46,147 bases of DNA. It comes from an uncultured Chryseobacterium sp. Lineage in GTDB: Bacteria > Bacteroidota > Bacteroidia > Flavobacteriales > Weeksellaceae. Below the pieces are notes generated by a model, which was not told where the DNA came from, did no database searches, and was given only the letters and a program-made list of their open reading frames with translations. The number at the start of each line of letters is the position of its first letter. The first letter of the stretch is position 1. The position numbers were made by a program, and so were the translations under genes. The stretch covers positions 1 to 46,147 of the forward strand of contig CAJYXJ010000076.1 of NCBI GenBank assembly GCA_913778085.1, in the 5' to 3' direction. Shown one piece after another: positions 39,195 through 46,062 of this stretch.

Positions 39195-39620
39195 TTATTC
39201 GAAGTTGTATTTCTCCTTAAACTTCAGATATTCTTCCGCAAAGGTATGTTTTGTATGATGAACTTCCTGATTCCTGATGTAATTCCGTACCCACTCTAAC
39301 ATAGACTCTGAAACGGAAACTGCAAAATATTCATCCTGCCAGACAAATTTCTCCTGGATCAATTGATTTTTATTAATCCAGAAAGAAGATTCCCCCTTGA
39401 TCAATTGTACAATTTTTTCTATATTCTGGTTTGAACCTAAAGAAATTAAGCAATGGCAATGATCTGAAAAACCATTGACCAGATCTACATAAATTCCTTT
39501 TTCCGCAGCATTTTCTTTAATGTGTTTCCAAACTTTCACCCTTAATACAGCAGTATTTAAAAAAGGAATTCTGTTTTTCGTTGAAAAAACGAGATGGATA
39601 TAAATTTTAATAAAAGACAT
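39195..39620 (-). CDS. IS200-like REP-associated transposase (RAYT, TnpA-REP)
   Basis: 141 residues from the ATG at 39620. A TTG 18 bases upstream is open but less likely. It has the single-domain Y1 HUH fold: an N-terminal FIKIYIHLVFSTKNRIPF, the metal-binding DHCHCLISL (His54 and His56), and the catalytic helix VRNYIRNQEVHH with Tyr114 and Gln118. These enzymes nick single-stranded DNA next to hairpins. The palindromic repeats on both sides, in inverted order, mark it as a RAYT rather than an ordinary IS200, which has no terminal inverted repeats. No TnpB partner is present. All key residues are intact, so it may still be active. Confidence 0.87.
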   Translation of the reverse strand: MSFIKIYIHLVFSTKNRIPFLNTAVLRVKVWKHIKENAAEKGIYVDLVNGFSDHCHCLISLGSNQNIEKIVQLIKGESSFWINKNQLIQEKFVWQDEYFAVSVSESMLEWVRNYIRNQEVHHTKHTFAEEYLKFKEKYNFE

Positions 39621-39693
39621 TTGTGTTGTTTTTGCCAAAAATATAAATTATTTTTAAATTTTGGCTAAAGCCGGATGAATGGCGTTACAGGGA

Positions 39694-42474: not shown

Positions 42475-42801
42475 TTACATTTTTATCGCAGATTTTACCG
42501 CAAATTCTTCCGCTATTTCTTCCATCCACTGGGCCACATCCTCTTCGCCTGTTGCCCTCTGGTAGGTATTACCCAGAGAAACCAGGATCTGATGGATGAA
42601 CATCTTCATCTGGTCGACCGGCATTTCTTTGGTCCAAAGGTCGATTCTCAAAGCTTCCATTGTTTTATCGTCCCAAACCGAAATCATCGTTGCCTTGGTT
42701 GCTTCCTTTTCGATGCCGCCATCCTGTGCGTTCCAGGTAATATTTTCCGGGATGTGGTTTTCATCCAGTTCTACATCTATCGTAATCTGAGTTTTTCTCA
42801 T
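42475..42801 (-). CDS. gldC: Gliding motility protein GldC
   Basis: 108 residues, no signal peptide. The sequence KTQITIDVELDENHIPENI, then WDDKTMEALRIDLWTKEMPVDQMKMF and a C-terminal acidic helix are those of GldC. In Flavobacterium, GldC improves gliding and is cytosolic, although it is not part of the core type IX secretion channel. It has its own promoter overlapping the end of the upstream gene. The T9SS-tailed endonuclease at 28594-30132 fits a cell with this machinery. Confidence 0.92.
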   Translation of the reverse strand: MRKTQITIDVELDENHIPENITWNAQDGGIEKEATKATMISVWDDKTMEALRIDLWTKEMPVDQMKMFIHQILVSLGNTYQRATGEEDVAQWMEEIAEEFAVKSAIKM

Positions 42802-42828: not shown

Positions 42829-42858
42829 CAAAGTTAATATTTCTTCAGCTTATCCAAA
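42829..42858 (-). promoter_or_regulatory. Promoter of gldC inside the end of the fusion gene
   Basis: On the minus strand TTTG (42858-42855), an 18-base spacer and TAACTTTG (42836-42829) match the flavobacterial promoter. The first bases of the -7 box are the stop codon of the permease-thioredoxin gene. Confidence 0.65.
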
Positions 42859-45035
42859 ATTTCTACAAAGTTATCTTCATCCGGAAATGGTGTATTCAGG
42901 TTAAATATTTTCCCTTCCGGATCAATGATGATAAATCTGGGGATCGACCGGATTTTGTACGTATTCATGAACTGCTCCGCATCTTTCAGCCATAATTGGG
43001 GAAGATTCGAGGGTTTCGTCTTTAAATAATTTCTCCATTTCGACTGGTTTTCATCGACGCTTACCGAAATAAACTGTAGATTCTGATAATATCTATATTG
43101 ATTATTTCGTGCTTCAAAAACCGGGCGGGTCTGCCTGCATGGTCCGCACCACGTAGCCCAAAGATCGATTACCACATACTTTCCGCGGAATTTGGAGAGG
43201 TTTACCGTTTTACCATTGTCATTTAGGAAAGCCAAATCCGGAAATACGGCGCCTTTTTGAGATCTATTGATCTGTTCCAGCTTAGAATACAGCATTTTTT
43301 TGTAATCAATATTTTTCAAGTTATTAATTTCACCGGCGAATAATGTATTTCTTGACAGGCTGTCGGTTTGAAGTTCCATGGTTTTGGATAATTGCTTCGA
43401 AAGCAAACGGTCTTTTTCCAGCCCTTGCGGAAGCCTGTTGATCTTCACAAAAAGGATACTGTCCGCATTGATCGACTGATCTTTATCCGTTAATAAATGA
43501 TCCAGCTTAAACTGAAGGTAATTTTCGTTTTTGCTTAAAAGCAACGATGGCTTGCTGATATTGGCATTCAGCTCATCCACAAAAGCTTTCGGAGGAGCAA
43601 ACTTCGGATCTTTCCATGAGGTCATTTTCCGGTAATTGCTGATTTCATTTAAATAATTGATAGCCATCAATTGTCTCCTGTATGCTTTATATTCATCCGA
43701 AAGGGCATTGTTGGCAGGATCGGCAAATCCATTCAGAATTCTTTTTTTCTTGCTCCAGTCGTCCTGAGCGGCTTCGTAGAATTTTTCAGGTTCGTTGTTG
43801 TAAGGTTGGTCATTCAGCACATAGGTAAAATCCCTTCCGAAAGAATCCTGCTTTTCGCGATAGATCTGGTCGGCTTTCCGATTTGATTTTAGGGATGTGA
43901 CCATTGCCGTATTGTTAAATTTCAGATTAAGATCAAACCAGTCGCCACTTCCCATCACCAGGATCAGTCTTTTATTCCCGATCTCAATCAGGTATTCATC
44001 CAGCGAAAGCTTTTCTTTGGTAGACCAGCTGAAGGTATTGTTTACCACTGGTACCGCTCCGATTTTTTTATGGAAATCTGAAGTAAAGATTTTAACGGAA
44101 TCAGTTTTAAGATCCGTATCCAGTGTTCCTTTCATGGAAACTCCTGCCGCACCGCTTTGATAAGCCCTCGGCTGCTGGATAAAATAGAGCAAACCTGCTC
44201 CGGTTGCAAATAATGCAGCTGATACAACCATCTGCTTTTTAGTTTTACCAAAAGCATTTTTAAAGCCTTTTTTACTGTACCATACATAACCGATGATCAG
44301 GAAAATCACCATCCAGAACACGCTCATATACTCGGAATGGGAAATAAAAGTATTCAGGTTTCTGATTTCAGGAGCATTCCAGAACGTACAGAGAGAACCG
44401 TACGGATTGAAAAAGAAAGACTGTTTCTGAATAAGCGAGGCGATATTGGATGCGATCCCCAGCGAACCGATCAGGAAAGACCAGATGAAACCCTGGAAAG
44501 CCACGGAAATACAAAGCTGAAGGGCCGCAATTCCTAAAATGGTAATGCATATCCTGATGAAGGTCTTCATGGCCCAGAACACATCGAAGTCCGTTAGCTT
44601 GACGGCATTCGGATGAATATAATAATCTGCCATTGCCATGATCATACTGAATACAAAATAAGAAGTGATAGACAGCACGCTCACTACAACCACGATGATG
44701 TATTTTGAAAAGTAGAGATGAAAACGGCTTACCGGCTGTGTTTCCATCAGCTGCCAGCCGTTGTTTTTGTGATCGGTCTGGGCTATCCTGTTGGCCACAA
44801 TAATAATCAGCAGGGGCAGGATAAAGAATACGAAATATTTTATCTGTTCGCCACCAATGGCATCTTCAAAGACAGAAAATTTCAGGGTTTCTTCCGGAAC
44901 CGTTTCCCGTATGAAAAAAGAAGGGACATAAACCAGCAGTGGGAGTAATGCGCCTAAAACAATGGCCATATAAATGATCCCTAATCCTTTTATTTTCAGC
45001 CACTCTGTTCCGACTGTTGTTAATAGTTTTTTCAT
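42834..45035 (-). CDS. ABC-2 type permease fused to a TlpA-like thioredoxin protein
   Basis: 733 residues, far longer than an ordinary permease of this kind (about 230-290). Residues 1-290 have seven likely membrane segments and resemble lantibiotic/bacitracin-type ABC-2 permeases. Basic residues (KKGFKNAFGKTKKQ) before the seventh helix put that loop inside, so the rest should be periplasmic. Residues about 300-590 are soluble and resemble the N-terminal part of flavobacterial TlpA proteins. Residues 595-733 are a thioredoxin-like domain: FPDLAFLNDNGKTVNLS, WCGPC at 629-633, and the cis-Pro motif SIPRF at 697-701. Export and thiol-disulfide chemistry would thus be joined in one chain. It starts 5 bases after the ATPase gene. 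No frameshift or stop separates the parts. Confidence 0.88.
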   Translation of the reverse strand: MKKLLTTVGTEWLKIKGLGIIYMAIVLGALLPLLVYVPSFFIRETVPEETLKFSVFEDAIGGEQIKYFVFFILPLLIIIVANRIAQTDHKNNGWQLMETQPVSRFHLYFSKYIIVVVVSVLSITSYFVFSMIMAMADYYIHPNAVKLTDFDVFWAMKTFIRICITILGIAALQLCISVAFQGFIWSFLIGSLGIASNIASLIQKQSFFFNPYGSLCTFWNAPEIRNLNTFISHSEYMSVFWMVIFLIIGYVWYSKKGFKNAFGKTKKQMVVSAALFATGAGLLYFIQQPRAYQSGAAGVSMKGTLDTDLKTDSVKIFTSDFHKKIGAVPVVNNTFSWSTKEKLSLDEYLIEIGNKRLILVMGSGDWFDLNLKFNNTAMVTSLKSNRKADQIYREKQDSFGRDFTYVLNDQPYNNEPEKFYEAAQDDWSKKKRILNGFADPANNALSDEYKAYRRQLMAINYLNEISNYRKMTSWKDPKFAPPKAFVDELNANISKPSLLLSKNENYLQFKLDHLLTDKDQSINADSILFVKINRLPQGLEKDRLLSKQLSKTMELQTDSLSRNTLFAGEINNLKNIDYKKMLYSKLEQINRSQKGAVFPDLAFLNDNGKTVNLSKFRGKYVVIDLWATWCGPCRQTRPVFEARNNQYRYYQNLQFISVSVDENQSKWRNYLKTKPSNLPQLWLKDAEQFMNTYKIRSIPRFIIIDPEGKIFNLNTPFPDEDNFVEILDKLKKY

Positions 45036-45040
45036 TGCTT

Positions 45041-45943
45041 TTAGTTTTTAGTGATTTCCATGAACCATTCTTCCAGGCCCGCGCTGTTTTTAATTTCAAA
45101 AATCTCCGCATCTTTCAGTACCAGCTTTTTGATGAGCGCAGTAATATCTTCCTTCGATTCGGCTGTAATCTCAATGCCTGTTTCGTCCAGTATTTTCGGG
45201 GAATAATTTTCGGGGATTTCAGGAATGAAAATTTTGGCATTATTAAGTCCGATCCGGATGCGGTTATACCGGTAGCGTTCATTCAGATCTTTGATACTTC
45301 CTGCAAAACGAATTTCGCCGTGGGAGATAATCGCCAGATGCGTAATCATTTTTTCAATTTCCTGAAGCAGGTGGCTTGAGATAAAAATGGTGACGCCTTC
45401 CTGTTTATTCAGCTTAATGAGCAATTCGCGGATTTCCAGCATTCCGTTGGGATCGAGCCCGTTCACCGGTTCATCCAGGATCAGAAGGTCGGGTTTTCCC
45501 AGCAAAGTAATAGCGATGGCCAGCCGCTGCTTCATTCCCAACGAATATTTTTTCATTTTCATATTCCGGCTTTCCCACAACCCTACCAGATGGAGCACCC
45601 GCTCACATTCGGAAAGCGGAAGACTTCTCAGCCTGGAAATTACAAGGAGGTTGTCCCAGCCCGAAAGATGGTCGTAAAAAGCAGCCGTATCGATAAGGCT
45701 TCCGATTTTATTAAAGCCTTCGGGATAAAGCACATCCAGTTTTTCGTCAAAGATGCGAACCGCGTTCTGCTCATCGGGAATGCTTCCGATCAGCATTTTC
45801 ATGGTGGTGGATTTGCCGGCTCCGTTGGCTCCCAGAAATCCGAAAATACTTCCCTTAGGAACAGAGAGACTGATGTCTTTTAAAACCGGCTTGTTTTTGG
45901 AAAATTCAAAACTGAGGTTCTGAATCTGTATTACATTTTCCAT
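45041..45943 (-). CDS. ABC transporter ATP-binding protein (BcrA/lantibiotic-export type)
   Basis: 300 residues, one ABC domain plus an accessory C-terminus. Walker A GANGAGKST (about 37-45), the Q-loop region SLIDTAAFYDHLSG, signature YSLGMKQRLAIA (the LGMKQR form typical of BcrA-like exporters), Walker B LLILDEPVNGLDPNG and H-loop ISSHLL. The C-terminal 80 residues follow the DrrA/BcrA accessory pattern. It powers the downstream fused permease. Together they form an efflux or export pair, the cargo of which is unknown. Confidence 0.92.
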   Translation of the reverse strand: MENVIQIQNLSFEFSKNKPVLKDISLSVPKGSIFGFLGANGAGKSTTMKMLIGSIPDEQNAVRIFDEKLDVLYPEGFNKIGSLIDTAAFYDHLSGWDNLLVISRLRSLPLSECERVLHLVGLWESRNMKMKKYSLGMKQRLAIAITLLGKPDLLILDEPVNGLDPNGMLEIRELLIKLNKQEGVTIFISSHLLQEIEKMITHLAIISHGEIRFAGSIKDLNERYRYNRIRIGLNNAKIFIPEIPENYSPKILDETGIEITAESKEDITALIKKLVLKDAEIFEIKNSAGLEEWFMEITKN

Positions 45944-45963: not shown

Positions 45964-45993
45964 CAAATATATAACATAAATAGTAATATGCAA
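45964..45993 (-). promoter_or_regulatory. Promoter of the ABC exporter operon
   Basis: Minus-strand TTG (45993-45991), 19-base spacer, TATATTTG (45971-45964). The leader would be only about 15 bases. Confidence 0.6.
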
Positions 45994-46024: not shown

Positions 46025-46062
46025 AATCCGTCTCACAACCACCAAGTGAGGCGGATTTTTAT
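46025..46062. terminator. Hairpin terminator at the window's right end
   Basis: AATCCGTCTCAC (46025-46036) and GTGAGGCGGATT (46046-46057) pair over 12 bases with one wobble, followed by TTT on the plus strand. It probably ends a gene located beyond the window, on the minus strand, before the exporter promoter. Confidence 0.65.

Follow-up and report, generated by a model that had tools for sequence, protein, structure and literature searches.

TlpA/ResA-type thioredoxins and the DUF4369-thioredoxin proteins of Bacteroidota are held by a signal anchor or a lipid, and NosD, the partner of NosFY, is a separate protein and not a thioredoxin. Among ATP-binding cassette (ABC) systems, LanFEG drives peptides out of the membrane (PMC5786555), and in YbbAP-TesA the ABC engine is proposed to offer membrane compounds to an enzyme in the periplasm (PMC12646458). 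The window analyzed here, the whole of contig C76 (CAJYXJ010000076.1; 46147 bases) of an uncultured Chryseobacterium sp., carries an ABC ATPase gene followed by a gene that joins an ABC-2 permease to a TlpA-like thioredoxin in one chain. The fusion is a real, conserved family of several Bacteroidota lineages. An earlier note on this DNA had not named it as a described system, and a literature search, covering few subscription papers and no automatic protein annotations, likewise found no description of an ABC permease-thioredoxin fusion.

The fused frame comprises 733 codons on the minus strand (45035..42834), a strand that the earlier note had not given, and the plus strand of the same stretch is full of stops. 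Pfam models recognize both ends of the protein, namely, ABC2_membrane_4 at amino acids (aa) 9 to 192 (64.8 bits; cut-off, 27), Thioredoxin_8 at aa 618 to 710 (64.1 bits; cut-off, 27), and Redoxin at aa 594 to 719 (54.8 bits; cut-off, 26.6). The thioredoxin domain conforms to the TlpA-type fold, and ABC2_membrane_4 was matched by 20/20 fused family members tested. When 297 genomes of the same family were queried with the permease plus linker, 73 matched; 64 of these, including that of the window, carry an uninterrupted full-length frame, with WCxPC in 49/49 of those fully read. The remaining matches were one interrupted copy (G242), one copy at a contig edge (G047), and 7 stand-alone permeases only. 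A scan of one genome per species (84,980 species) with two exact peptide patterns, which can miss more distant fusions, gave 78 loci from the best 80 of 82 stretches. All are Bacteroidota by their titles and include Chryseobacterium, Elizabethkingia, Kaistella, Amniculibacterium, Flavobacterium, Parapedobacter, Leadbetterella, a member of the Chitinophagaceae, and further relatives. Full-length frames occur in 77 of the 78 loci, and in the other one the contig ends within the gene. The family and species-wide sets share many genomes, and 64/297 and 77/78 are not independent counts. Because so many relatives carry the uninterrupted frame, the fusion is not an assembly slip; sequencing or annotation artefact and chance are ruled out, and the parts are not separated by a stop or frameshift, an outcome for which the earlier note had allowed.

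As the union is conserved down to ∼24% identity over permease and linker, with both active-site cysteines intact in 76/77 full-length relatives, the coupling itself appears to be under selection. Ratios of nonsynonymous to synonymous substitution (dN/dS) were 0.05 to 0.10 in all three parts when the window was compared with relatives L011 to L014, except that synonymous change was saturated in the thioredoxin part of L014, which gave no ratio. In overlapping surveys at the order, class, and phylum levels (395 genomes each, three candidates scored per genome), full-length fusions were found in 15, 1, and 2 genomes, respectively, the window's own being counted in each; lack of the fusion in these surveys is weak evidence. 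Chryseobacterium sp. ISL-6 carries two copies (L100 and L104), which are 54% and 48% identical to that of the window over aa 1 to 590. The environmental Chryseobacterium strain Leaf405 is another carrier (L080).

Hydropathy and AlphaFold2 both give the seven membrane helices counted in the earlier note, and the active-site motif and cis-proline that it had read as intact are in place (Table 1). Six lysines lie within aa 255 to 267, directly before helix 7, and by the positive-inside rule the C-terminal part, including the thioredoxin, is predicted to be located in the periplasm, as had been proposed. The permease part contains the conserved block D88-H-K-N-x-G-W-x-x-x-E-x-Q-P101. The ∼300 residues previously taken for a spacer instead form two folded domains, a DUF4369-like beta domain and a helical domain. 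PF14289 (DUF4369) matched 7 of 20 members at an E value of ≤1 (best, 3.2e-6) and did not match the window protein at that threshold, and hhalign against a thioredoxin-like protein of the same genome gave a weak, collinear alignment (E value, 0.0017; probability, 15.7). For the helical domain, the Foldseek top matches listed were to human HGSNAT at root mean square deviations of 16 to 19 and were set aside.

The ATPase gene (45943..45041) ends 5 bases before the fused gene, the spacing reported in the earlier note. Its assignment there to a lantibiotic export type did not hold: the best-scoring NCBIfam model is that of lantibiotic protection (TIGR03740), at 211.2 bits and below the cut-off of 309.75. 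In 78/78 fused loci and in 25/25 loci with stand-alone permeases, an ATPase homologue precedes the permease gene on the same strand at a distance of no more than 400 bases. The Q-loop position is acidic in the window (D, assigned by eye), in all 77 scorable fused loci of the 78 in the set (D in 50, E in 27), and in 25/25 unfused loci (all E). An acidic "E-loop" at this position is a hallmark of LanF, a point on which the literature search gave nothing. A promoter-like motif, TTG-N19-TATATTTG, precedes the ATPase start and follows the Bacteroidetes promoter consensus; a motif of this kind was present in 20 of the 63 other ATPase upstream regions, whereas base shuffles would give 0.8. Given this motif and the 5-base gap, the ATPase and fusion are likely on one transcript. 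Before the motif stands a strong hairpin (46025-46056, by eye) followed by T-rich sequence, perhaps the terminator of an off-contig gene.

What is observed is an ATPase gene beside a permease whose seventh helix carries a whole DUF4369-helical-TlpA thioredoxin protein, the combination being conserved as a unit. We postulate, with a probability of about 0.4, that this two-gene ABC system is an extract-and-process machine. In the window, whose contig ends upstream of the ATPase, a single permease gene adjoins that ATPase, and the 21 and 45 loci compared have no cluster of a second permease in common; because there is only one permease gene, the transporter would consist of two ATPases and two fusion chains. 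As in ABC-2 systems of the LanFEG or Pmt type, ATP binding and hydrolysis would bring a substrate that is associated with the membrane, and probably amphipathic, to the periplasmic face; candidate substrates include an antimicrobial or signaling peptide, a lipoprotein, or a thiol compound. The tethered thioredoxin would then exchange a disulfide of the substrate, most likely by reducing it, and could be recharged via the DsbD/CcdA pathway of the cell. Since the flanks of the operon yielded no substrate gene, the substrate is more likely to be of foreign origin, to be encoded at another site, or to be a general thiol of the envelope. Extraction followed by exchange is proposed because the ATPase is nearest to a lantibiotic-protection family and has the acidic Q-loop residue, and because LanFEG and YbbAP-TesA provide precedents. 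More speculative, and in our view doubtful, is the proposal of a new type of envelope machine, in which ATP hydrolysis in the cytoplasm directly powers or gates periplasmic thiol-disulfide chemistry, with the ABC-2 motor picking disulfide-bearing molecules from the inner membrane and passing them to the thioredoxin in the same polypeptide, for example, to unfold disulfide-stabilized antimicrobial peptides and so disarm them.

The extract-and-process reading is favored by the constant pairing of fusion and ATPase (78/78) while the flanks differ between lineages, by the retention of the thioredoxin active-site residues, by the low dN/dS in every part, by a permease fold like those of NosY and the Pmt transporter 6xjh, and by one match over cut-off to a DsbD-type electron donor in the genome. 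Several observations weigh against it. First, the ATPase fails the TIGR03740 cut-off. Second, a full-length copy from a Leadbetterella sp. metagenome-assembled genome (L121:7998-10160) has lost both active-site cysteines, its site reading WSKGADGS instead of WATWCGPC; the thioredoxin domain remains, and the copy is a natural redox-dead version. Third, the gene of G242 (L059, G242:C1:1566000-1583000) is split into frames of 408 and 312 aa; among the fully read loci, no other copy is interrupted. Fourth, the genome also has a match to VKOR, an oxidizing enzyme, and gene content therefore does not settle the direction of exchange. Fifth, NosFY, the best permease fold match among the matches listed, is not known to move its metal, and the fold match thus does not show transport. 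The main rival is NosFY-type mechanotransmission, in which no transport occurs and permease motion opens, closes, or repositions the redox domain, so that ATP gates the exchange in the way that NosFY drives NosD. We consider it rather improbable: NosY is just 9% identical in the structural alignment, the sequence families indicate a peptide-immunity ABC-2 group, and NosD has another fold besides being a separate protein.

The cysteine pattern bears on how the thioredoxin may be used. Among columns with Cys in at least 30% of the 78 rows, conservation is limited to 630 and 633 (77/78), and 122 and 175 hold Cys in 37 and 35 rows. Because the membrane part lacks a conserved Cys pair, a role in conducting electrons in the manner of DsbD/CcdA was rejected. 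The same feature would fit a thiol exporter, in which the ABC part exports cysteine or glutathione-like or bacillithiol-like thiols, as CydDC does, and so recharges the attached thioredoxin; such a scheme would also explain how the domain is fed in the absence of a co-encoded partner. It is nonetheless distinctly unlikely, as CydDC has a different ABC fold, the nearest families are peptide transporters, and a DsbD-type donor is already present. As to the chemistry of the domain, a thioredoxin-type buried Asp (D624) is found in 76/77 relatives and Ile698 in 75/77, and an Ile before the cis-proline presumably resembles cytoplasmic thioredoxin. Together, the Trx-like Asp and Ile-cisPro favor action as a reductant, to judge from sequence.

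Unfused relatives are permeases of ∼260 aa that likewise have a homologous ATPase. At 31 stand-alone loci, no thioredoxin domain of this kind was found downstream (tblastn E value, 1e-3) in the 1.1 to 1.6 kb covered, a stretch that is shorter in L173 (0.5 kb) and nil in L171; in a control, tblastn found the thioredoxin in 4/4 fused loci. These loci, together with the regular occurrence of stand-alone permeases with an ATPase (25/25), would be expected if the thioredoxin were merely tethered, that is, a general envelope disulfide reductase using the permease as an anchor, with an unrelated exporter function. The seventeen further matches to the Redoxin model in this genome, one of them under cut-off, point the same way. 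However, in a tree of the permease part (56 fused rows, including the window, and 24 unfused), fused and unfused permeases are separated by one branch with a Shimodaira-Hasegawa-like approximate likelihood ratio test (SH-aLRT) value of 99, and in the 78 loci no permease on the fused side lacks the domain. An anchor of such a loose kind should have been lost or exchanged more frequently, and simple tethering is therefore unlikely. The tree was built by a quick method and has long branches on the unfused side; it omits 22 of the 77 rows (close Chryseobacterium relatives), the contig-cut L109, the cut, unfused L171, and unfused permeases met only in the family, order, and phylum surveys. Because the fused permeases form one side of it, the tree fits a single fusion event. 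A 543-aa thioredoxin-fold protein of the same genome (L008:1312-2943, G000:C82) is without CxxC and reads, by eye, WNPYIG at the site.

Flanking genes vary by lineage. Besides the ATPase, the most widespread neighbor clusters were present in 8/21 loci in one comparison and 15/45 in another, and yaaA-like, CRP-like, pirin-like, and M13-peptidase-like neighbors (assigned by eye) are confined to single lineages or a few genera. The earlier note had proposed a Cys-containing peptide as cargo and had named small Cys-rich peptides among the neighbors to list. Small open reading frames (ORFs) of 20 to 70 aa with at least two Cys were sought within 600 bases on each side at 76 loci; 85 were found in 54 loci, and no group of similar ones spans >5/76 loci. 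At 54/77 loci, the nearest ORF of ≥90 codons is no more than 150 bases away on both flanks of the operon, a lower bound on the free room, as such ORFs were counted whether real genes or not. A dedicated co-encoded Cys-rich cargo is thus unlikely; the cargo may instead have its gene at another site or be a foreign peptide that enters from outside. An exporter for a dedicated Cys-rich peptide would suit the type of ATPase and permease, and exporters with a fused peptide-processing domain exist; with no widely shared neighbor other than the ATPase and little free room at most loci, we regard it as highly improbable. The survey of fusions and neighbors that the earlier note had suggested returned a conserved Bacteroidota family with its ATPase and no recurrent Cys-rich peptide gene next to the operon.

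In the window, gldC (42801..42475) adjoins the fused gene. Within Chryseobacterium, the operon stands directly before gldC in one clade and ∼4 kb away in another, two sites in the same neighborhood, as if it moved as a cassette. It lies between a ∼330-aa gene and gldC in L055 to L058 and after a ∼555-aa gene in L042, L043, and L153. A gliding-motility role was rejected, as gldC is ∼4 kb off in the last three loci and the GldA score is 146.1 bits against a cut-off of 402.6. An anti-phage defense system was also rejected: the fused protein had no PADLOC defense-model match at an E value of ≤0.001, and the matches of the ATPase to 14 models (best, mad3 at 6.5e-25) are read as general ABC/AAA ATPase similarity. 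In several genera (L045, L046, L047, L048, and L054 and also L117), the ATPase is preceded on its own strand by a ∼690-aa gene that by eye looks like an M13-type (PepO-like) peptidase. In the Flavobacterium loci (L126 to L152), 15 have a nearby gene that by eye looks like yaaA (peroxide stress), in most cases oriented opposite to the operon, and CRP-like and pirin-like genes follow in many. This neighborhood could hint at redox stress. Elsewhere in the window, a 147-aa ORF (39195-39638, minus strand) resembles, by eye, an IS200/REP-type Y1 transposase.

Table 1. Features of the fused gene and its ATPase partner (positions in the window)
Feature	Position	Strand	Basis or conservation
Whole fused gene, 733 aa + stop	42834..45035	minus	open frame
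ABC-2 permease part, aa 1-260, six membrane helices	44256..45035	minus	
Seventh membrane helix, aa 266-288, predicted to take the C-terminus into the periplasm	44172..44240	minus	hydropathy; AlphaFold2 helix 266-287
DUF4369-like / transthyretin-like beta-sandwich, aa 299-384	43884..44141	minus	
Helical domain, aa 387-591, without clear fold match	43263..43877	minus	
TlpA/ResA-type thioredoxin domain, aa 594-733	42837..43256	minus	
Active-site WCGPC, aa 629-633	43137..43151	minus	both Cys in 76/77 full-length relatives
cis-Proline P699 within IPR motif	42939..42941	minus	77/77 full-length relatives
ABC ATPase, 300 aa, BcrA/LanF-like; Walker A GANGAGKS, Walker B LLILDEP	45041..45943	minus	
Promoter-like TTG-N19-TATATTTG, 20 bases before ATPase start	45964..45993	minus	

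The locus resembles BcrAB, LanFEG, and CprABC in having an ATPase beside a six-helix ABC2_membrane_4 permease and in its acidic Q-loop residue. It differs from LanFEG in (i) having one permease gene in place of LanE and LanG, (ii) showing no lantibiotic cluster, and (iii) carrying a 445-residue redox extension, predicted to be periplasmic. The permease folds like the Pmt (phenol-soluble modulin) transporter 6xjh, but the ATPase scores well short of the two family cut-offs (375 and 350), and we know of no redox domain in the Pmt exporter. Compared with NosDFY, to which the likeness is one of permease fold, the locus shows no neighbor cluster besides the ATPase that is shared by more than 8/21 or 15/45 loci, a comparison made without a nos model and, for the window, on a contig of which only ∼200 bases are readable upstream of the ATPase. 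In contrast to TlpA/ResA and the DUF4369-thioredoxin proteins of Bacteroidota, the anchor here is an ABC-2 permease. YbbAP-TesA has a different ABC fold type (type VII) and a hydrolase that is not fused to the transporter, whereas here the enzyme is a thioredoxin and is part of the chain. If ATP-driven movement is coupled to disulfide exchange, this would be the first such case known to us. Such coupling would provide a compact two-gene system for asking whether ABC engines drive periplasmic redox chemistry and what the uncharacterized DUF4369-thioredoxin proteins of Bacteroidota act on. Both halves of the protein belong to known families, and it is their covalent union for which the literature search showed no description.
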